Virus record (IMG/VR): IMGVR_UViG_3300025030_000169
Location: 1 to 47,422 of that record
From: a virus
Reading direction: 5' to 3' (one strand)
Length of the DNA: 47,422 bases
Shown here piece by piece: positions 1 through 11,867 of the stretch. The notes beneath the pieces are model-generated. The model did not search any database. It saw only the letters and a program-made list of their open reading frames with translations, and was not told the DNA's origin. The position numbers were made by a program, and so were the translations under genes. The first letter of the stretch is position 1. Every line of letters starts with the position of its first letter.

Positions 1-3000
1 CGCTGGATGATATGCTGAATCTCGTGGTGAACGGTGCTGCGTGCCGCCTCGTTATCCATCCGCGAGTTGACATAGATCGTCACATCCTGCGGGGAAAATA
101 TTCCTCTGCGGTTTGGCCCCAATGACCGGAAGGCGATGTTCACGCCCTTGAGGAATGGGTATGCCTGGAACAGTCCGCGGTCTTTCAGGACATCCGACAG
201 TTTGCCGTCGCGCATCTCGAGCGAAGAAAGGCTGTCGTCAAGTTCGAAACTCCATTGTCCCGGGACGATCTCCCACCAACCGGTTTCCTTCCAGATGTCC
301 TCGCGGGGCTTGCCGGCGGCTTTCATCTCCTGGGCCTTGGCCAGTTTGCCGGTGTCGGCTGTGGTGGCATTTTTGCCGGCAAAAGAGAATAGCGGATTTC
401 CGGCGCCGTCACTCCACTCTTCCATGGATGAATCTTTGACGGGTGCCATGGCGATAAGGACATTACCCTTTCTCGTCACCTCGCCGAAATACTGACGCAC
501 TTCATCCTCATACCAGGCGGTCTTCTGGTGATTTTGCCATGAAGCGGGAGCGCCGTTGACTACCTTTGTAACCCGGCTGTTGCCGTCACCGTCGCCTTCA
601 TGGATCTGGAAATAGGCGGTACCGTCTGCTTTGATAGCCTTGGCCGCCTGTCGAATTACCGCCAAGCGAACAGGCTTCTCTTTGATGACATTCAGCACAT
701 TATTTACGGTCGCCGTGTCGGTCCTGTTGGCCGTCAATTCTTTGACAACATCTTGGTTATGCTCGGCCGATCTGTTGAAAGGATCGTAGACCAAGTTCTT
801 TATTCCTTGTTCCTTCAGGTATTCCGTCCCGGCGTCATACTTTCCACCGCCGATGTCGACATTGACGGTTCCCGGCTTGAGGAAGTTTTTCTTGAAGAGT
901 GCCGGGACTTGGTTCAATGAAGTTGCGGCCGAAGAGATAGCCTGCAGGACCTTCTCGGAGAACATCGGCGCGGCCATGTTGCTGCCCTGGATATCCCCCC
1001 CGCGCTTCACCGCGCTGATCGCCATGACCCGCAGGTCATCGACAGACAGGTAATTGACGAACCGGTTACCGAACACCCTGATCAGGATCTTCTTGGCCGC
1101 TGCCATGATACGGCGGACTACTCCCGACTCCGGAGCGTCCTCGACCATGTAGGCCATGACCTCGCTCCAGTAGTGCTCAGACTTCGTGCTCTTCGGCACC
1201 CTGGCCATCGCGGCGCGGATCGCCCGGCCGGTCCTGCCGGATTCTCTCTGCCGCTTCGACAGGGACCGCTCTATTGCCTGATACTCCCTGTCCTTGAGCA
1301 TCAGTTTGCGGAGGTGAACGCCAACCTCATGGTTGAGGACATCGCCGGCCCGGCCTTTCTGAATGCCATCGGCCACGAGCCATGACTTGGTGCCATCGGT
1401 GAAACCTTGGATGGTGCGGCCGTCTTCTGAGTGGAGGATATCCGGAGATGTCAGCCGGTCGATGACCTCCATGGCTTCTTCCTGGGTGCCGACGAAATCA
1501 ACCGCCCCGGATTCCACGAGAGAGGTGAAGGTCTCTTCGCCGATGGTGGAGCGCAGTTCGTCTTCCAGTTGCGCCACGGTGCGGCCGGTGGTGGTGCCGC
1601 CGGACTTCGAATATTCGACACCGAGTTTCGCCTTTTCCACTTCCTTCGCCACGGCATCTTCTGAAGCATTGCTTTTCTTCCGGCTCTCCAGTTCCCGCTC
1701 GACCGCCGTCAGCCGCTCCCCTTTCTGCTTCAGATCATCTTCTTTGGCAAATGGCTTTCCCGCCACTTCCTTGTAGGTAGGCAAGTCCTTCTCGGCTGTC
1801 GCAAGAAGACGGGCTTCATTGTTTGCCCTTGATGAGATATCTTCGATGGTGTCCAGGGTGCCGCGGAACAATGAAGGCATCGCCGTGTGCGCCCGGTTGG
1901 CGGCGAGGGTCGAGGCATAACTCTGGTTGACGAGGTAGGATTGCTTCCCGCCGGGAAGGTCTATTCGGCGCTCAAAGAAGAATTCAACCTGTTTTTTACG
2001 ATCAACAACCTTGTGCTTCTCATAACCGACAGCCGACATCGAAACCTGCATGGAAAGATCGATATCGATACCATGAACAGTGACGGTCCCGAGCATGATC
2101 TCATCGGATTCGGAAAAGTCCGGATCCTGCTTTTCAATCTGCTCGAGTTTAGCATTGGCCAGGGCAACGACTTCCTTGGTGGCCTCGCCACGCTGCTTGA
2201 AGGACTTGCCGTTGATCTTCATGGCAAAGAAAGCGGCATCGCCCAAGACCGCATGCAGGGCATCCTCGGCCTTGACTTTGGCCCGGTACTTCTTGCCGTC
2301 GATGGTGACGGAAAAAGGTTCCGCGCCTTCCTTCTTCGACTCTTCGATCAGTTTATCCAGGGCCTTCCTGGCGTCGGAGCCGCCATAAGTGGTGCCGTCG
2401 ATGTCGACGGTGGCCGACTCCCACTTTCGCCGCTCGTCGGCGGTGGCCTTCTCGACTGTCTTCGCCGCAGACTCCAACTCCTTGATCATGGCCGGCGCCG
2501 TCTCGATGGTCCGTTCCATCCGGTGAATGGTGTCTTCGGCCGCCCATCTTTGCCGCTCATGTGCCCGCTTCAGCCGCTCAAGTTTGTCGATCTCGGCCGA
2601 CAACTGCACCCGCTCAAGCTGCAGCGGTTCTCCGGAGGCGATAGCCGCAATCTCGGCCATGCCAACGGCATCGGTATCGTCAAACTCCATAGTGAAAGAG
2701 CCGTCATACTGCCGAATGCCGTTGATCATCTTCAACTTGGTGGAATTGAGCGCCCACATCTTGGCATCGACGGTGGTGTCGGTGGTATAGGCCAGGATTT
2801 CCACCTCGAAGTTATCCCGGATAGAATTGCCGTTTTCATCAAAACCGATTCTATTGCCCTGACGGATGATGCGCCCCTCGCGCTGTTCGATGTCGGAAGG
2901 CTTCCAGGTGACATCGACATGGTGAAGGCCGACGAGCCGCTCCTGAACGTTGGTCCCGGCGCCCATTCGCGGAGTGGAGCCGATAAGCACCCGCACCGCG

Positions 3001-6000
3001 CCGCTGTTCACTTCCTCGAAGAGGAATTTCTTCTTCTCGTCGGTGTCGGCTTCCTGGATAAACCGGATCTCGTTTGCGGGAATACCGCGCTCGACAAGAT
3101 TATCCTTGATCTGCTGGTAAGCGTTCCAGCCACCGGCCTGGGCAATCCTCAGTTCCTCGATCTCTACCGGGTCGAACCGCTCCAGGCTATCACCGATGCG
3201 CCTGATAGCCGCTTCATCTCCGGTGCGCTCGGCCGCCTCCAGTTTGGCCATGAGCTCGTCGTAGGTCTTGATGATCTTGTCATCGCCTTTCGCCTTGGGG
3301 ACGCTCCGGTCCAGGAAGATAAGTTGGGTGCCCTTTTCGGCCGTCCATTTGCGATGGAGCCGCACAACTTCATCGGATACCCTGGAGAGTTTTCCGCCTT
3401 CCTCGTTGCTGTCGATACCTGGCCTAGCCGCCCGGGCATCGAGTGAAACCTTTCTGGCCCGGTCCATCAGCCGCAGGCGCGCCTTATTACGCTCTTTCGG
3501 ATCGGTGATGCTTTCCAGTCCGTCAAAGCCGCTGATGATGTCCTCGATGATTCCGCGCTGTGCCGGCGTCGGTTTGACGTTGATACCCACCCGGCCGCCG
3601 CCCTTGACTTTCGGCAAGGGAAATTGAGCGCCGTTGTTGTCCTCGGCGTACCACTTCTGAATATCGTCATTCGATACGCAATCGGCGAAGGTGTAGTAAA
3701 GGTCCATGAGGGACCGGGTATTCGTCCAGTCGCGGCCAAGGCGGGAAACCTCCTTGAGGCCCTTGCCGGAATCGGTCGGCTCGAAGGCGCTGTTGACGGA
3801 AGCGAAGTTGTTTCGCCAGGCGTCGAAATGTTCCAGACCGTGCTCCTCAAGGAGTTCCGGCACCAGGTAGCGCATAAGGGTATACATCTCGACCGCGCTG
3901 TTCGATATCGGGGTGCCGGTCATGAAGGCGATGGAGCCGTTTTTCATCTCGTGAAGGACACGTGTTTTTGTCCACAAATCGTAGGCTTTTCCAGACCCGC
4001 CTTTCGGCCCCATGCCGCGCACGTTGAGGCTTGAAGTGTAGAACAAATTTTTCCCGATATCGTGTTCTTCGTCGACGGTCAGGTCATCAACTCCCAACTG
4101 CTCAAAAGTGAGGAGTCGGTCTTTCTTCCCGCTCTTCTCCTTTACCTGGGCCAGCCGGTTCTTGATCTTGTCGCGCAGGGCTTCCGCCTCTTTCACGGCC
4201 AACGGTTTTCGGAAACTTCCGCCATCATGCCCGGTTTCTGCCAGTGCTTCCTTCACGGCTTCCTCAGCAATGGCCAGCTCTGCTTCCAGGTATCTGGTCT
4301 CGGTAGCCGGAGAAATGCCGATAAACTGGAAAGAGGAATGCGGGACGATAACCATATCCCAATCGCCGGTTGCGATCTTGGCGAATATCCGGCGGCGCTT
4401 TGCCGGGACCAGATCTGACTTGCCGGCGGCCAGCAGCTTGGCCCCCGGGTAGAGCTTATAAACGTCCTTGGCAAACTGCTCGACAAGATGGTTCGGGACA
4501 ACGATCATTGGCTTACGGGAAAGCCCCATGCGCTTTCGCTCGAGCGCCCTGGCTATGCTGGTAAAGGTCTTGCCGCTACCGACAGCATGGTCGAAGAGAA
4601 CAACATTATCGACGATCCCGCGCCATATGGCGTTCTTCTGGTGCCGGCGCATGGCAATGATGGCATCTGGCACCTTCCCCGGGAACTGCAGGTGTTGCCC
4701 GTCGCGCTGCTTGGTGACCCGGACATTGAATTTGTCGTTGAAGATTTTTACCAACCTGTTCCGGCGGTCGGAGTCCTTGAATACCCATGCGTCGAATTCA
4801 TCCTTGATCTCGGCAGCCTTGGCTATTGCCGCATCGGTCGCCTCCTGGTCGACATGAGTTTTCCCTTCATGGTCGGTGTAGGTGACTTTGATCGGCCGAT
4901 TGTTGAGGATGGCGTCCACGAGCGCAACTGGACTCCGTTGCTGAGTGCCCCAATTACTCGGACCGGCCGTCCTGCCCTGAACATGGAAGGTGTTTGTGGT
5001 GCGGAAATACTTCACCTCTGCCGGGCTCTTGGTCAGGTGAGAAAGGAAATCGGCATAGACATCCGCCGGAATCCACACGCCGCCGATGGTCGCCGTCACC
5101 TTGTCGGCGGTCCACGGCTCCGGCAGCACCTTCTCCAGGGCCTTGGCGTTCTTCTCCAGGCCTTTGGCCTTGGCCGCCGCCATCTTCCTCACAACATTAC
5201 CGCCGAGATATTCGTCGGCCGGTTCCCACCTGTCAGTTTCCGGATCGAAGAAGATGAGCGGGGTATCGAGGTCGTCATGCAGGGCCTTGACGGTCTCATC
5301 CTCGCTCTTGCCCAACAGTTCGGCCACTCTCTCAAGGCTGATTCGTCCGGTCTCCGACAGGTTGATGGCCAGGGCGTCGGCGGGCGTCGCCGCCGTGGTG
5401 GCCTTCTCTACCGGGGAGATGACCCGCTTGCTCAAGATGGTGGCCTGCTCAACCATGGCCTGTTGAGGCGCTATGCCGAGTTTCTTCGCCTTGTCCTTAT
5501 CGATCGGCGGTTTGTACTTGCTTTCCAGGGAGAGGAGCAGGGCACTGTTCGGCATGCCTGCCAGGATGTTGGCCGTCTTCCTGTCGTTGATATGCGAGTG
5601 CTCTTTCACATAGGCGTCATACTGCCGGCGCAGTTTCGCCCGGTTGCTCTCCATCTCCTTCTCGGATGAATCGGAAGTCTCGAGGTTGATCTGCTTGGTG
5701 AGGGTTTCGAGAAGCTGTATAGAGTCGCGCAGGCGATTATACCCCGGCTCGCCGAGTTTCATGTTGGCCGGAATGTCGCTTTCCTTCTCGAATACTTCTC
5801 GGGTTTTCTGGTTCCGCTTGGTCGCCTTGTCACCGACAACCACCTTGACCTTCGCCCCCTTTTCATCAACCTTGTCGACATCGCGGAACCACTTGCCGTC
5901 CTTGTCCATGCTGAGAGCCGATGACCAGGGGGAAGATGGTGTGATAACCCGCTTGGATAGAATGGTGTCTCCGCCGTCGGTCTCGCGGTCGATAACCTGC

Positions 6001-9000
6001 TCCAGTTCGCCAAACTCATTGAATGAGATGGAACCCAATTCCTGACCGGAGAGGGAAATCTTCATGGCGTCGACCATGTTCTTGAAATACTGCGCCTGCT
6101 TGTCGGCTGGTGCCACTTCAACGGCGATATCCGCCGGCATGGTCTTGATGATCTTGTCTAGGCGCGCTGCAATGTCCTCGGACTTGTCGAGTTTCACATT
6201 GACGTTGGTCCCGGATCCCCGCATGGAGCCGGATCGTTCCAGTCGGCCGATAACCGCTGCCGGGTTCGATTTGAAATAGGCGTTGACCCTCATCGGCTCG
6301 CCGCCGAGCGGATCTGGAATGGTTGTGGTTTCCACCCACTCAGGATCTGGCAGGGTGATCTTCTGTTTTGCGGCGGTCTCCCGGGCGGTCTCCATCGCCG
6401 AGAGTTCGCGCTCGGTGTATTTCTGCAGGAAGAGAACATCCGTCACGACATCGGTCTTGGCATTCTCCTTGAAAGCCGTATCCGGCAGCCGGATGGCGGC
6501 CAGGAGTTTTCCTTTTCCAGCCAACAGTTTACGAACGGTGGTATCCTTTCCGTCCATCAGGTAGCGCGAAACCACCATCACCTGCAGGCCGCCGGGCTTC
6601 AGAGCGTCCATCCCGGCTAGGAAGAACTGGTGATGAATCGTGTAGGGATTGAGGTCCGGATTGTGCGGGAAGTTGAGCCGGTCTTGCCCGAAAGGCGGAT
6701 TGCCGATTACCAGGTCAAAGCTGTTTTCAGGCAATGGAAGATCCTGGAAACCGGAATGGAATACTGCGGCGTTCGGGTAGAGGTGCTTGGCAATGCCGGC
6801 CGTGATATTGTCGTACTCGACCGCCATCATGTTGGTATTGCCGGCCAGGGATTCCGGCATCAGACCAAGGAAGTTGCCGACACCAACAGAAGGCTCCAAG
6901 ACGTTGCCGCCCTTGAACCCCATGCGCTCGACCGCCTTCCACATCGCATTCACGACCGGGAAACTGGTGTAGTGCGCGGCCTTGGTGCTGTTCCTGGCAA
7001 CGGCCAGTTCTTCTGGTGTCAGGATCTTCTCGAGTTCGGCAACACGATCCTCCCAGCCGCTCTTTACCTCGCCGGTTACGCCATTGCGGAAGGAATTGGC
7101 CAGCCCGCCCCAGCCGACATACCGGGCGAGGGCGCGTTGCTCATCCGGAGTAGCCCGGCGCTTTTCTGATTCGAGTTTCTTGAGGATTTTGATAGCGGCG
7201 AGATTGTCGTTGAACTTCACGGTCTCACCGCCTTGACCGAGACGAACGTCTTCGGTAATGCGGAAATTTACTGCGGGAGTGGTGGCTGGGCCGCTTACTC
7301 TCTTTCCATCTCCTCTACCACTTCCTTCTCCGGTTTCAGAAGAATGTACCTCGGCAACATCACCTCTTCCGCCTCGTGGTGCTGATACCCCGCCTGCATC
7401 AGGCTTCTTATTCCCTCCTGCGTTCTTTCGGCCGCCTTGAGCGCTTCCGCCTGCAGGAGCCCGGCCGCTTCCAGTGCCGCCGCTTCCTTCGGACGCCATT
7501 CCTTCCAGTGCATTATCGCCTGGACCTGCAGCTGCTTCGTCGTCTGCCCGTACTGACTTCCCTTCACCTGACTGATTTTCGTTATCGGCATATGGTTCAC
7601 CTCCCCTTTCTTCAAGCGTACTCTTGTTAGGCTTTTCTGTCAACTCGACTTCGAGGTTTCCATTCCGCACGTCCTTGACGAATCGCTGCAGGTAGGGCCG
7701 GATCTTGTCACCGAATTGTCCGTAGAAGTAATTGATGAGTTCCTTGACGGAATACCCAAGATCCTTTACTCCATTCCAGGCGTTGACGAAATGAGGCTTG
7801 GCCTTTTGATATGTCTCCTCATCGAATGCCGGCCCCATCCTGATGGTATTCGGATCGCCGAAAAGAGCAGTGAGACCGGCCATGGCGTCCTTGACCGCCG
7901 ACTGCGCGGCAATGCCGCCTTCCTTGACGATCTGCCCGGCGGTCTTCTTCGGCGCTGGCGGACTCGGCGGGTTGCTCTTCGGCGGCCGGGGGGCGATCGG
8001 CGCTTTCGGTTCACGGGGAGGCTTCGGCGGTTCGGCAGTCTTTGGCGGTTTCTCGGCTGCCCGTTCCTGGTCTACCTCGTCAAAGAGATTGTCGATATCA
8101 TCATCCGACATTTCCTGGAGTTGTTCCAGGGTCGACTTCGGATCTGCCTCTGGCCTTTCCTCGACAAGACGAACATTATCGGAAGTGGTCTCGAAAGATT
8201 CCCCGTTTTCCAGGGATATGGAAACAAGAGGTTTTTGTCTGCCGATCTGGACGAACCGGCTGACGCTTCCACGTTCGCCCTTGTTTTCGCCGTTGGTTAT
8301 TACCACCTGGTCGTTGGGGTAGAAACGATCTTCAGTTGTGGTGCTATTCGCCTCGATCTGCGCTTTCTGCTCGGGAGTTACGAGGTCTTTCAGAATGGAC
8401 GGAACCACTTTCGGCTGCACCTCATCAAACAGGTACATCTCGGCCGAATCCTTGTCGGACTGGCTGGGCTTCTCAAGGTTGTGCCGGAACATGCGGGCGT
8501 TGTAATTGTCGCCCCGGGACTCGGCCTCGGCCAGGGCGTTTTCCATCAACCACCGGTCCACCCGCTTCAAGGTGTTCTCGGCCTTTCTGTTCGAGTCGGT
8601 TGCCACTTTCGGAAAAGGAGAGGTCTGCCGGCCGGTCGCGGTGAGGCGCACGTCGCCTTCAGCCAGCATTTCGCCGGTTTTGCCGCGGGGAATGGATATC
8701 CCGGAATTTTCCAACCCTTTGACGTTTTGATTTTCGGTTCCGGAACTGGTTTTGTTTTCTGTTTTCGAATTCTCTGAGGTCTGGCCTGTTTTTCCCCCTG
8801 GGTCGCCGGTGAGGTGCTGCTCACGAATGAACCACCCGCCATCCTTCTTGAAGGTGAATTTGTCGATGGCCTTTGCTTCTTTCCAGGTAATGTCGGTGCG
8901 GACTATTCCGCGAATGGTCTTGCCTTTCTTGGTGACGTGCTCAACGATATTGTCTTTTTTTGGTGTTGTTGAGTTAGGAATATTATTTTCTATAATTTCA

Positions 9001-11867
9001 ATGGCGCTAGCCGTTTCATCACCGGCCTGTTTCTGCTCCATTTTCTCCGGGTAAAGTTTCGCGATACCGTTTTTCGCCCACTGGTTATTGCTGTACGCCT
9101 GCAGAACAGGAAGAGGAACGGGAAGATCAAACCGCAACGCTTCTTTCACAGAGCGCGGATGTGCAGCCAGGCGGATGGCCTTTTCGTCGGTATCTGTGAT
9201 CCCTGCGGTGTACTCTTTGGGAGTCATTTGATATGGACTCTTTTCAGAAACAGTGGCTTTCGTTTCGGCATTCGCAAATTCGACTTTTGGCATTCCGAAA
9301 GTGGGTTTTCGGAATGTGTCCTTTTTCGATTTCGTCTCAGAAAAGACAGTTCTTTCTCGGACGAATACACCTTGGCTTGGCCCTTTTCCGCTCACCCATT
9401 TCTTGAATACCGGCATGGCGATTCGAGTAACAGATTTGCCACCTGTCCACCCTGCCTCATAACTGGAATTGTAGAGGGCAAGGGCTTCCTGCTCGCTATT
9501 CACGCCAGCCACGACCTTGTGCTCATCGAAAGAACCATCTGCCTTGTGCTGGTTGACCACGTAGACATTATCCGCCCCGCCCTGATAGCCGGGTTTCACC
9601 ATGATATCGACATGATCCTTATCATACCCCTTGGACCCGAGTATGCGGCCGTAGTCGGCCTTCATCTCCTGGGACCATTCTTTGCCTGAAGCGTCCTTGC
9701 CGGAGCGCACCGAGCCGGCCGGGTTTTCGATGGAAAGACTCAGCCCGTCGATTGAAGCCTTGGCGGTCTTGTAGTTCTCAGCTTCCTTTTGGGCTTCGGT
9801 CGGCGCGAGGTTGATATCCTTGCCGTGGACGATGGAGGAAGGATTGTCTACCGTGTTCTTAGGCGCCGCCTGGACGCTCTGTTCCCCGGTGCCGCCTTCC
9901 AACCCTGTGGTACGAATATCCCCTTGCTGAACAGATCCTCCATCTGTTTTCCCGTCAGATACAAGTGAGCCGCTTCCCGCCCCGTCTGTTCCTTGTGGTA
10001 GAGAGCCAATCTCTCTATATCCTGGATACTTATTGATCTGCCCATCTGTCTCTCCTTCTGGTTGATTTGCAAAAGCCGCTGCGGCATCATCAAGGCGCGC
10101 CTGTCTCCCCTCCACATCGACCATGGCCGGCGTCTGTTCCTGGTTCATGAACGCCTGAGCGGATTCTTCGGCGGTCGGCGGTCGGCCTGTACGGTTCGCT
10201 TCCAACTCTTCCATGGAAAGCTCTCGGTCAGCCAAACCCTGCTTTAGATTCTCGAATCGCTGCTTTCTGGTCCTGGTGTCGGCCATGCCCTGTTCGTCTT
10301 CTGCCTGGCCCGTCAGGTCCCACATCAGGTCGCGAGTCTCTTCCGGGAATTGCTGATTGAGGACATCGGCGTCTATCTGGTCCCTGGCCCCTTCCGGAAG
10401 GATGGGGGAGTAGCCCTGCTGCTGGTCCGGACCATAGCCAGGCTCTTGGCCGGGAACCGGAATACCGAGATGATCAAACACCCCTTCCTTCACGAACCGG
10501 TCTTTGGCGTCCTGGGGAAGTTGCGGATCATTGAAGAATTCGAGTGCAGCATTGACCCGCTGTGCTCGGTCATCTTCTGATTCGACAGGTGAACCGGTGA
10601 GTATCCCGGCCAGTTCGACGGCGGCTTGAGAGTCGGGAGAGTCGGTATTCTCGCTGTTGAGTGATTCACCGAGAAGGGCATTGACCTCGTTTTCAAGAGG
10701 GTCTGTGCTTGCTGATCGGCGGATAGGCCTTCCGGCGGCAACGTCTTCAAGAGCTGCAACGCGCCACTGATCAGCGTCAGGGACCTTGTTCTCCTTGGCC
10801 GACTCATAAAGTGCGTTGACTATTTCCGCCCTGGTTTCCGGTTCGGTGGCTTTCGGGTCGTTCAGGGCGTTGTCAACCGCTTCGGCATGCTGTGACCGGC
10901 GATAAGAGGCATGCAGGCCAAACGGCGCGAGCCAGGCGGTCATGCCGAGCGTCGGTAGGATTGACGCCTTGGCCTGTTCAATTGGATCGGTGTTGACGCC
11001 AGCGTTCTTTTCGACTGTGGCTTGGCCGTAGTTCTGGCCCATCTCCGTTAATGTTTCGCCTATAGCTGTCTTGACCAATGCCTTGGCAAACGGCCGAAGG
11101 ATTTCTTTGTTGGTGGCTTGGCCAATGACACTCGAGATGGTTTTTCCCGCACCAATGCCGAGCAGATCTTTACCGAAACCGAGAAACTTTCCGCCAATAT
11201 AGGTGCCGAGAGTTTCACCGGCAGTCTCGATTGCGCCAGACTTCCAGCCGGCAGTTTCGGCTGCCTCCTCGGTGCCGCCTGCTTCCATGACCGCTTCTTT
11301 CGTCTGCTGCGCCTGGGCCATGCCCATAGGAACGGCTCCACCAAGGGCGGTAAGTCCAAGGCCTATGCCGCCGGCAGTCAACGCTTCCGGCAGGAGGGCA
11401 ACACCGGCACCCACGGCCAGTGCAGGGACAATCGATGACGGAATCATCTCTGCGCCTTGAGCGAGGGTATTGGTGACGGCACTATGGTCTTCCGGGTGAA
11501 GCTGGTTCTCCGGACGCTCAAGGTATGCTTTACGGTTTTCCGCCAGACTTTTTCCGTAATGCGCCAGGCCCTGGGCCTTTTCCTTGCCGATGATGTTTTC
11601 GGTAACGGGTGATTCCGTTCCCCACTGAAGCGCCTGACCGGCCATCTCCGGAAGGACACCCAAGGTGCCACGCTTCCATGCGGTGCCGAGTTCTCCAAGT
11701 GCTGACCGCGGCTCCTGCGGCTTAGGGGTGTTCGCGATAGATTCTACCTGATCAAACACACTGAGACTTTTGCCGGCTGTCGCGTTTTGAACAGGTGGCG
11801 GGACCGGATCGGAAGCGTCGATAGAAGAGGATATCCGAGAATCTACATCATCAAAGATGTTGCCCAT
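1..11867 (-). CDS. Giant phage polyvalent protein (methyltransferase-helicase-peptidase), 3' end cut by window edge
   Basis: A single frame stays open from ATG at 11867 to the left edge, more than 3955 residues. Seen in order: small-residue-rich hydrophobic stretches (about 140-275); a pyrophosphatase-like core GRILGSKGYDKDHVDIM (740); KOW-like NDQVVITNGENKGERG (1182); Pro-rich and Gly/Ser-rich linkers; an N6-adenine methyltransferase with VLEPSVGVGNF (1655) and NPPFG (1723); a superfamily 2 helicase with GSGKT (2429), DEEH (2599), MTGTPISN and QREGRIIRQGN (2995); a coiled coil (3075-3150); HEVGVH (3513); a second SAM-methyltransferase-like domain with VDIGGGKYD (3669) and NVLNVI (3720); then an LPD23-like segment ending in HEIQH (3948). 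Such domain mixtures are known as phage/conjugative polyvalent proteins, and P1 DarB (methylase-helicase) is a virion-carried antirestriction example. Injection with the DNA is inferred. The ATG follows the previous stop by 14 nt and lacks a convincing Shine-Dalgarno, so translation is probably coupled. Confidence 0.9.
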   Translation of the reverse strand, partial: MGNIFDDVDSRISSSIDASDPVPPPVQNATAGKSLSVFDQVESIANTPKPQEPRSALGELGTAWKRGTLGVLPEMAGQALQWGTESPVTENIIGKEKAQGLAHYGKSLAENRKAYLERPENQLHPEDHSAVTNTLAQGAEMIPSSIVPALAVGAGVALLPEALTAGGIGLGLTALGGAVPMGMAQAQQTKEAVMEAGGTEEAAETAGWKSGAIETAGETLGTYIGGKFLGFGKDLLGIGAGKTISSVIGQATNKEILRPFAKALVKTAIGETLTEMGQNYGQATVEKNAGVNTDPIEQAKASILPTLGMTAWLAPFGLHASYRRSQHAEAVDNALNDPKATEPETRAEIVNALYESAKENKVPDADQWRVAALEDVAAGRPIRRSASTDPLENEVNALLGESLNSENTDSPDSQAAVELAGILTGSPVESEDDRAQRVNAALEFFNDPQLPQDAKDRFVKEGVFDHLGIPVPGQEPGYGPDQQQGYSPILPEGARDQIDADVLNQQFPEETRDLMWDLTGQAEDEQGMADTRTRKQRFENLKQGLADRELSMEELEANRTGRPPTAEESAQAFMNQEQTPAMVDVEGRQARLDDAAAAFANQPEGETDGQINKYPGYREIGSLPQGTDGAGSGSLVSDGKTDGGSVQQGDIRTTGLEGGTGEQSVQAAPKNTVDNPSSIVHGKDINLAPTEAQKEAENYKTAKASIDGLSLSIENPAGSVRSGKDASGKEWSQEMKADYGRILGSKGYDKDHVDIMVKPGYQGGADNVYVVNQHKADGSFDEHKVVAGVNSEQEALALYNSSYEAGWTGGKSVTRIAMPVFKKWVSGKGPSQGVFVRERTVFSETKSKKDTFRKPTFGMPKVEFANAETKATVSEKSPYQMTPKEYTAGITDTDEKAIRLAAHPRSVKEALRFDLPVPLPVLQAYSNNQWAKNGIAKLYPEKMEQKQAGDETASAIEIIENNIPNSTTPKKDNIVEHVTKKGKTIRGIVRTDITWKEAKAIDKFTFKKDGGWFIREQHLTGDPGGKTGQTSENSKTENKTSSGTENQNVKGLENSGISIPRGKTGEMLAEGDVRLTATGRQTSPFPKVATDSNRKAENTLKRVDRWLMENALAEAESRGDNYNARMFRHNLEKPSQSDKDSAEMYLFDEVQPKVVPSILKDLVTPEQKAQIEANSTTTEDRFYPNDQVVITNGENKGERGSVSRFVQIGRQKPLVSISLENGESFETTSDNVRLVEERPEADPKSTLEQLQEMSDDDIDNLFDEVDQERAAEKPPKTAEPPKPPREPKAPIAPRPPKSNPPSPPAPKKTAGQIVKEGGIAAQSAVKDAMAGLTALFGDPNTIRMGPAFDEETYQKAKPHFVNAWNGVKDLGYSVKELINYFYGQFGDKIRPYLQRFVKDVRNGNLEVELTEKPNKSTLEERGGEPYADNENQSGEGKSVRADDEAAAGPGDNALEGMASEGSGGTGSGRAPAGGSAQGGRKNAGGNKKPDAGGVSAPRGGRGDVAEVHSSETGEGSGRGDGKRVSGPATTPAVNFRITEDVRLGQGGETVKFNDNLAAIKILKKLESEKRRATPDEQRALARYVGWGGLANSFRNGVTGEVKSGWEDRVAELEKILTPEELAVARNSTKAAHYTSFPVVNAMWKAVERMGFKGGNVLEPSVGVGNFLGLMPESLAGNTNMMAVEYDNITAGIAKHLYPNAAVFHSGFQDLPLPENSFDLVIGNPPFGQDRLNFPHNPDLNPYTIHHQFFLAGMDALKPGGLQVMVVSRYLMDGKDTTVRKLLAGKGKLLAAIRLPDTAFKENAKTDVVTDVLFLQKYTERELSAMETARETAAKQKITLPDPEWVETTTIPDPLGGEPMRVNAYFKSNPAAVIGRLERSGSMRGSGTNVNVKLDKSEDIAARLDKIIKTMPADIAVEVAPADKQAQYFKNMVDAMKISLSGQELGSISFNEFGELEQVIDRETDGGDTILSKRVITPSSPWSSALSMDKDGKWFRDVDKVDEKGAKVKVVVGDKATKRNQKTREVFEKESDIPANMKLGEPGYNRLRDSIQLLETLTKQINLETSDSSEKEMESNRAKLRRQYDAYVKEHSHINDRKTANILAGMPNSALLLSLESKYKPPIDKDKAKKLGIAPQQAMVEQATILSKRVISPVEKATTAATPADALAINLSETGRISLERVAELLGKSEDETVKALHDDLDTPLIFFDPETDRWEPADEYLGGNVVRKMAAAKAKGLEKNAKALEKVLPEPWTADKVTATIGGVWIPADVYADFLSHLTKSPAEVKYFRTTNTFHVQGRTAGPSNWGTQQRSPVALVDAILNNRPIKVTYTDHEGKTHVDQEATDAAIAKAAEIKDEFDAWVFKDSDRRNRLVKIFNDKFNVRVTKQRDGQHLQFPGKVPDAIIAMRRHQKNAIWRGIVDNVVLFDHAVGSGKTFTSIARALERKRMGLSRKPMIVVPNHLVEQFAKDVYKLYPGAKLLAAGKSDLVPAKRRRIFAKIATGDWDMVIVPHSSFQFIGISPATETRYLEAELAIAEEAVKEALAETGHDGGSFRKPLAVKEAEALRDKIKNRLAQVKEKSGKKDRLLTFEQLGVDDLTVDEEHDIGKNLFYTSSLNVRGMGPKGGSGKAYDLWTKTRVLHEMKNGSIAFMTGTPISNSAVEMYTLMRYLVPELLEEHGLEHFDAWRNNFASVNSAFEPTDSGKGLKEVSRLGRDWTNTRSLMDLYYTFADCVSNDDIQKWYAEDNNGAQFPLPKVKGGGRVGINVKPTPAQRGIIEDIISGFDGLESITDPKERNKARLRLMDRARKVSLDARAARPGIDSNEEGGKLSRVSDEVVRLHRKWTAEKGTQLIFLDRSVPKAKGDDKIIKTYDELMAKLEAAERTGDEAAIRRIGDSLERFDPVEIEELRIAQAGGWNAYQQIKDNLVERGIPANEIRFIQEADTDEKKKFLFEEVNSGAVRVLIGSTPRMGAGTNVQERLVGLHHVDVTWKPSDIEQREGRIIRQGNRIGFDENGNSIRDNFEVEILAYTTDTTVDAKMWALNSTKLKMINGIRQYDGSFTMEFDDTDAVGMAEIAAIASGEPLQLERVQLSAEIDKLERLKRAHERQRWAAEDTIHRMERTIETAPAMIKELESAAKTVEKATADERRKWESATVDIDGTTYGGSDARKALDKLIEESKKEGAEPFSVTIDGKKYRAKVKAEDALHAVLGDAAFFAMKINGKSFKQRGEATKEVVALANAKLEQIEKQDPDFSESDEIMLGTVTVHGIDIDLSMQVSMSAVGYEKHKVVDRKKQVEFFFERRIDLPGGKQSYLVNQSYASTLAANRAHTAMPSLFRGTLDTIEDISSRANNEARLLATAEKDLPTYKEVAGKPFAKEDDLKQKGERLTAVERELESRKKSNASEDAVAKEVEKAKLGVEYSKSGGTTTGRTVAQLEDELRSTIGEETFTSLVESGAVDFVGTQEEAMEVIDRLTSPDILHSEDGRTIQGFTDGTKSWLVADGIQKGRAGDVLNHEVGVHLRKLMLKDREYQAIERSLSKRQRESGRTGRAIRAAMARVPKSTKSEHYWSEVMAYMVEDAPESGVVRRIMAAAKKILIRVFGNRFVNYLSVDDLRVMAISAVKRGGDIQGSNMAAPMFSEKVLQAISSAATSLNQVPALFKKNFLKPGTVNVDIGGGKYDAGTEYLKEQGIKNLVYDPFNRSAEHNQDVVKELTANRTDTATVNNVLNVIKEKPVRLAVIRQAAKAIKADGTAYFQIHEGDGDGNSRVTKVVNGAPASWQNHQKTAWYEDEVRQYFGEVTRKGNVLIAMAPVKDSSMEEWSDGAGNPLFSFAGKNATTADTGKLAKAQEMKAAGKPREDIWKETGWWEIVPGQWSFELDDSLSSLEMRDGKLSDVLKDRGLFQAYPFLKGVNIAFRSLGPNRRGIFSPQDVTIYVNSRMDNEAARSTVHHEIQHIIQ
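7295..7591 (-). CDS. Nested out-of-frame small protein inside the giant gene (98 aa)
   Basis: This ORF lies wholly inside the giant polyvalent gene in the +1 register. Its ATG (7591) follows a perfect 8-nt anti-SD complement, GGAGGTGA (7597-7604), by 5 nt. The product looks like a real soluble helical protein: it begins MPITKISQVKGSQYGQTTKQ and holds MHWKEWRPKEAAALEAAGLL, with well spread Trp, His, Tyr and charged residues and mostly G/C third positions. In the giant frame the same DNA encodes a featureless Gly/Ser/Asp linker (about residues 1425-1524), the kind of segment that tolerates a second code. A TTG 24 nt upstream is in frame but would overlap the ribosome site. Function unknown. The alternative is a chance open frame produced by Gly-rich codons; the ribosome site and composition argue against this. 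Confidence 0.6.
   Translation of the reverse strand: MPITKISQVKGSQYGQTTKQLQVQAIMHWKEWRPKEAAALEAAGLLQAEALKAAERTQEGIRSLMQAGYQHHEAEEVMLPRYILLKPEKEVVEEMERE
9848..10045 (-). CDS. Second nested out-of-frame small protein inside the giant gene (65 aa)
   Basis: The ORF begins with ATG at 10045, 6 nt after AGAAGGAG (10052-10059), a strong ribosome site. It starts MGRSISIQDIERLALYHKEQ and continues with HLYLTGKQMEDLFSKGIF, a plausible amphipathic helical protein. The C-terminal 15 residues are Arg-rich and less convincing. The overlapping part of the giant protein (about residues 607-673) is Gly/Ser/Asp-rich linker immediately before the pyrophosphatase-like domain. It uses the same alternative register as the nested ORF at 7295-7591. 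Function unknown. A chance ORF remains possible, and the evidence is weaker than for the other nested ORF. Confidence 0.42.
   Translation of the reverse strand: MGRSISIQDIERLALYHKEQTGREAAHLYLTGKQMEDLFSKGIFVPQGWKAAPGNRASRRRLRTR

Follow-up and report, generated by a model that had tools for sequence, protein, structure and literature searches.

Same-strand nested genes are known in phages, among them Rz1 inside the Rz gene of phage lambda and the B and E genes of phiX174. The locus described here lies in the virus record IMGVR_UViG_3300025030_000169, a stretch of 47,422 bases (hereafter the window), in which head, portal, and other virion genes are followed by a giant gene on the minus strand. 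Its element of interest, N2, is an open reading frame (ORF) of 65 residues nested in that giant gene. Like Rz1 and the phiX174 genes, N2 is a small ORF that lies wholly within a larger gene, is read in a different frame from it, and has a start and ribosome site of its own. Unlike those verified proteins with known roles, N2 is an orphan predicted from sequence; the linker that holds it, in a giant multidomain gene, is of low complexity, and close relatives lack the ORF. On moderate evidence, N2 is probably a real gene, an accessory one that is nested out of frame in a linker between domains and encodes a putative orphan protein. We found no description of candidate nested genes sited in the interdomain linkers of polyvalent genes.

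By its InPase, LPD23, methylase, and helicase domains, the host gene belongs to the polyvalent genes known from phages and conjugative elements (Iyer et al. 2017, PMC5512222). That survey describes separate small ORFs that code for polyvalent domains near a large gene and likens them to cassettes; unlike these neighbouring ORFs, N2 lies within the large gene and out of frame. A word search of the same text gave no mention of overlapping genes. Overprinting, by which a gene already in place gives rise to a new protein through another of its reading frames, is treated in a review (PMC8227390). In contrast to such viral genes, the stretch overlapped by N2 itself comes and goes between relatives, so that insertion of a segment and overprinting of an old linker are equally likely.

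Signals and predicted product of N2

The position of N2, its ATG, its 65 residues, and a ribosome site 6 nucleotides before the ATG agreed exactly with an earlier note on this DNA (Table 1). Its placement in a low-complexity linker was also confirmed: N2 occupied codons 608–673 of the giant gene, in a low-entropy linker that immediately precedes the pyrophosphatase domain. As expected of a nested gene, N2 was complete inside another gene, in a different frame, with start, stop, and ribosome site. The N2 start region was weakly structured (−6.9 kcal/mol versus a gene mean of −15.9 kcal/mol, standard deviation 4.4), as was that of N1 (−7.9 kcal/mol versus the same mean), a companion nested ORF in another linker of the gene. 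The computed isoelectric point of the N2 product was basic, 10.9. The earlier note had called this protein helical, which was supported only in part: an AlphaFold2 model built from two sequences contained three helices (residues 7–21, 32–40, and 56–64), with a mean predicted local distance difference test (pLDDT) score of 65.6 and a predicted template modelling score of 0.44.

From the signals, the conservation in the related contig L003, the drop in divergence, and the presence or absence of the segment among relatives, we infer that N2 is translated. On the mRNA of the giant gene, internal initiation at AGAAGGAG and the ATG would lead ribosomes through 65 codons of the +1 frame and yield a small, basic protein. 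In the giant frame, the same bases would encode a spacer of low complexity ahead of the pyrophosphatase domain, tolerant of a passenger. The association with the host gene suggests that the product, which would be made alongside the polyvalent protein, may have an accessory role in host takeover or in counter-defence.

Conservation and divergence across N2

The related contig L002 was identical to the window across a 10.1-kb overlap, and L003 and L005 showed ~84% nucleotide identity to the window over the region. L003 retained the core of the Shine-Dalgarno (SD) site, the ATG, all 65 codons, and the stop of N2, and 56 of the 65 residues were identical (86%). The L003 site, TGAAGGAG, had the same AAGGAG core and the same spacing as that of the window. 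Among the relatives carrying the segment, conservation of the ORF and its signals was accordingly seen in one distinct relative, L003.

N2 was almost entirely contained in a variable linker segment, which started 11 bases before the SD site and ended 5 bases before the N2 stop codon, so that at either end its limit fell no more than a few codons from that of the interval from SD to stop. The segment was present in the window and L003, was replaced in L006 by an unrelated, shorter linker with stops in the +1 frame, and was nearly deleted in L007; L006 and L007 matched closely on both sides. The contigs of relatives, including the linker-less L006 and L007, held no standalone copy of N2. Loss of the ribosome site and ORF from close relatives had been named beforehand as evidence against N2: both were kept in L003/L005 but were absent from L006 and L007, where the linker was replaced or deleted. 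Because the segment was present or absent between close relatives and the protein had no homologue outside them, N2 is, by its distribution, an accessory and orphan element.

Divergence between the window and L003 was scanned in stretches of 65 codons over 1,085 aligned codons of the giant gene. In the giant frame, third codon positions changed at a mean rate of 0.356 (standard deviation 0.115), with a minimum of 0.092 in the stretches starting at codons 613–615, nearly the start of N2. Over the N2 region the rate was 0.09–0.12, the lowest of the aligned codons, and the lowest rate elsewhere was 0.154, within the conserved pyrophosphatase domain. Changes synonymous in the giant frame and nonsynonymous in the nested frame occurred at 0.114 per site in N2 versus 0.396 and 0.343 in the two flanks (P = 1.5e-4 and 1.4e-3). 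Among changes nonsynonymous in the giant frame, those silent in the nested frame occurred at 0.088 and those altering it at 0.038, a contrast that rests on 7 changes. These rates fit a product of two constraints (~0.31 and ~0.24, with a neutral rate near that of the flanks), which predicts ~0.027 for changes altering both frames, compared with the observed 0.038. In the selection test on the nested frame that the earlier note had proposed, the third-position dip and the suppression of giant-silent changes were significant, whereas the giant-nonsynonymous contrast had the right direction but, with only 7 changes, was not. When evolution under the giant frame only was simulated at the divergence of the flanks, the start, frame, SD site, and stop were all kept in 3–14% of runs, and 8 or fewer third-position changes in N2 were obtained in just 0.1–0.3% of runs.

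Chance expectation, companion ORF, and rival explanations

Expected numbers of nested ORFs were derived from synonymous-codon shuffles of the whole gene, counting ATG-started ORFs of at least 60 residues with a strong SD site. The giant gene contained two such ORFs against 0.13 expected (P = 0.007). In 11 related gene pieces, 8 were counted against 1.0 expected (0 of 300 shuffles), a count that takes in N1 and N2 twice each, from two genomes. ORFs of 300–800 residues from the same loci, 35,485 codons in all, contained no nested ORF of this kind. A second null, in which the amino acids of the linker were recoded at random with the codon usage of the phage, gave an open +1 frame in 45% of recodings, an ATG in 55%, and an SD site in 10%; the three occurred together in 2.5%. 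The length of N2 by itself is unsurprising because the +1 frame was open so often, while the SD site together with the ATG appears moderately surprising; ORF length was rejected as evidence on its own, the stop-free run of 98 codons ranking just tenth by length among those of frame +1. Scored by phage codon usage over ~780 stretches, the +1 frame equalled or exceeded the giant frame in fit only in the N1 and N2 regions, and compared with recoded linkers this fit had P = 0.02 for N2 and below 1e-4 for N1.

N1 is the stronger and independent case. Its ORF and SD site were kept in L006 and L007, and the changes at giant codon positions 1, 2, and 3 between the window and these contigs numbered [12,4,5] and [6,1,2] in two intervals. 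Position 1, mostly silent in the nested frame, thus had more changes than position 3, opposite to what ordinary coding regions show and a clear signature of predicted dual coding. The L006 form weakly matched the C-terminal part of the polyvalent profile phrog_938 (E = 1.3e-5), and an AlphaFold2 model from two sequences had a helical core near pLDDT 90. On these sequence patterns the giant gene very likely hosts at least one real nested gene, and the evidence for dual coding in N1 therefore raises the prior for N2. The earlier argument that a second case makes chance less likely for the first agrees with the count of two, but its logic runs the other way: N1 is the strong case, and it supports N2.

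Several observations weigh against N2 as a gene. The third-position dip had a z of only about −2.3 among all the stretches scanned; 9 of the 14 changed nested codons were nonsynonymous, and the giant frame was the better conserved of the two. N2 was carried by only two distinct sequences: the homology search proposed earlier returned the 86% identical ORF of L003, and no homologue beyond this and the identical L002 was found with a single sequence or a profile in viral contigs, including IMG/VR. Phages, plasmids, Pfam, PHROGs, NCBIfam, and PADLOC gave no match either. PDB sequence matches at E = 0.13 were weak and were taken as chance. The low-confidence structure model had no fold match (best Foldseek E = 1.9), and model and fold search together add nothing on function. 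Five giant genes of named phages contained one nested ORF of at least 50 residues against ~0.5 expected, no excess, and such ORFs were absent from the named DarB phages POI1126 and PBC5 and from BF1-TP2.

The strongest rival explanation is a chance ORF, which is unlikely but has to be taken seriously. A linker rich in Gly, Ser, Asp, and Glu (PEGETDG...) would leave the +1 frame open and happen to spell GAAGGAG and an ATG, and its recent sharing by two phages would have left little time for divergence. The frequency of open frames and complete signal sets among the recodings, the unexceptional stop-free run, and the predominance of nonsynonymous nested changes all fit this explanation, and the genomes are mosaic, so that a recent linker exchange between lineages would also lower divergence. 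Chance does not account for a divergence minimum that coincides with N2, for its codon fit and accessible start, for segment limits at the SD site and the stop, or for a second nested ORF with a clear dual-coding pattern in the same gene; recent exchange does not produce the excess of position 1 over position 3 in N1. Confidence in a real N2 gene goes no higher than probable because the z is modest and such an exchange is possible.

Explanations without a functional protein fared worse. The internal SD site, which lies at the edge of a domain and is also kept in L003, could be a translational pause that lets the N-terminal part fold before the pyrophosphatase domain, with the short ORF as a by-product. 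This is very improbable, as it leaves the lowered divergence across all 65 codons up to the stop unexplained, and L006 and L007 manage without the site. Least probable of all is that the segment is constrained by a conserved structure in the RNA or by a signal for transcription: the fold z-score of −1.73 that could favour it is unremarkable, no promoter, terminator, or Rfam match was found in the variable segment, and the divergence minimum tracks the limits of N2. An antisense gene was rejected because the plus-strand frames differed in length, 59 residues in the window versus 257 in L003.

Host gene and further nested ORFs

Table 1. Coordinates of the nested ORFs and of their host gene in the window
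Feature	Positions	Strand	Description
N2, nested ORF	9848..10045	-	65 residues, ATG (at 10045) to TAG (at 9850-9848); +1 frame of giant ORF 11867..3
Shine-Dalgarno site of N2	10052..10059	-	AGAAGGAG; 6 nucleotides upstream of the N2 ATG
Variable linker segment	9856..10070	-	four-way nucleotide alignment and a protein alignment; spans SD site and N2 except its last codons and stop
Inorganic pyrophosphatase (InPase) domain	9393..9797	-	Pfam PF18823, residues 691-825 of the giant protein, E = 1.9e-45; directly downstream of N2
N1, nested ORF	7295..7591	-	98 residues; +1 frame; SD site GGAGGTGA at 7604-7597; another linker of the same giant gene
Giant polyvalent (DarB-like antirestriction) gene	3..11867	-	ORF call; at least 3,955 codons; hosts N2

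The giant gene runs off the low end of the window, so that its codon count is a lower bound. The product matched the DarB-like antirestriction profile phrog_10089 of PHROGs with 1548 bits over residues 2044–3423, and Pfam placed an LPD23 domain at residues 3827–3883 together with N6_Mtase and SNF2/ResIII helicase domains. The great length of this ORF and its several unrelated domains, counter-defence or enzymatic, are those of a polyvalent gene, and by its Pfam and PHROGs domain content the predicted host gene is DarB-like. Compared with L006 and L007, its codons 40–345 in the window switched abruptly between near-identical and highly divergent blocks, which indicated strong mosaicism.

More tentatively, the interdomain linkers of polyvalent genes might serve as landing sites for small out-of-frame accessory genes with their own ribosome sites, swapped as cassettes from SD site to stop with the giant frame kept open; the giant gene here would then hold two of these cassettes, N2 and N1. 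ORFs that lie inside a long gene are normally dropped by gene callers. If linkers of polyvalent genes do carry passengers of this sort, small phage proteins have been overlooked as a class, plausibly host-takeover or counter-defence factors, and selection for a second frame would act on the 'disordered linkers' of polyvalent proteins.

Further nested ORFs were observed in related giant genes (codons 0-based). The polyvalent gene of L017 had two in the +1 frame with strong SD sites, of 88 residues (codons 1335–1422) and 78 residues (codons 1039–1116); the longer was weakly TnpV-like (PF14198, E = 2.5e-4, below the curated cut-off). L011 had a +1 ORF of 133 residues at codon 980 with the strong SD site AGGAGGT, and L009 one of 76 residues at codon 574 with AAGGAGG. 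At codon 1030 of the L003 gene, where the linker differs from that of the window, a GTG-started ORF of 45 residues was accompanied by AAGGAG.

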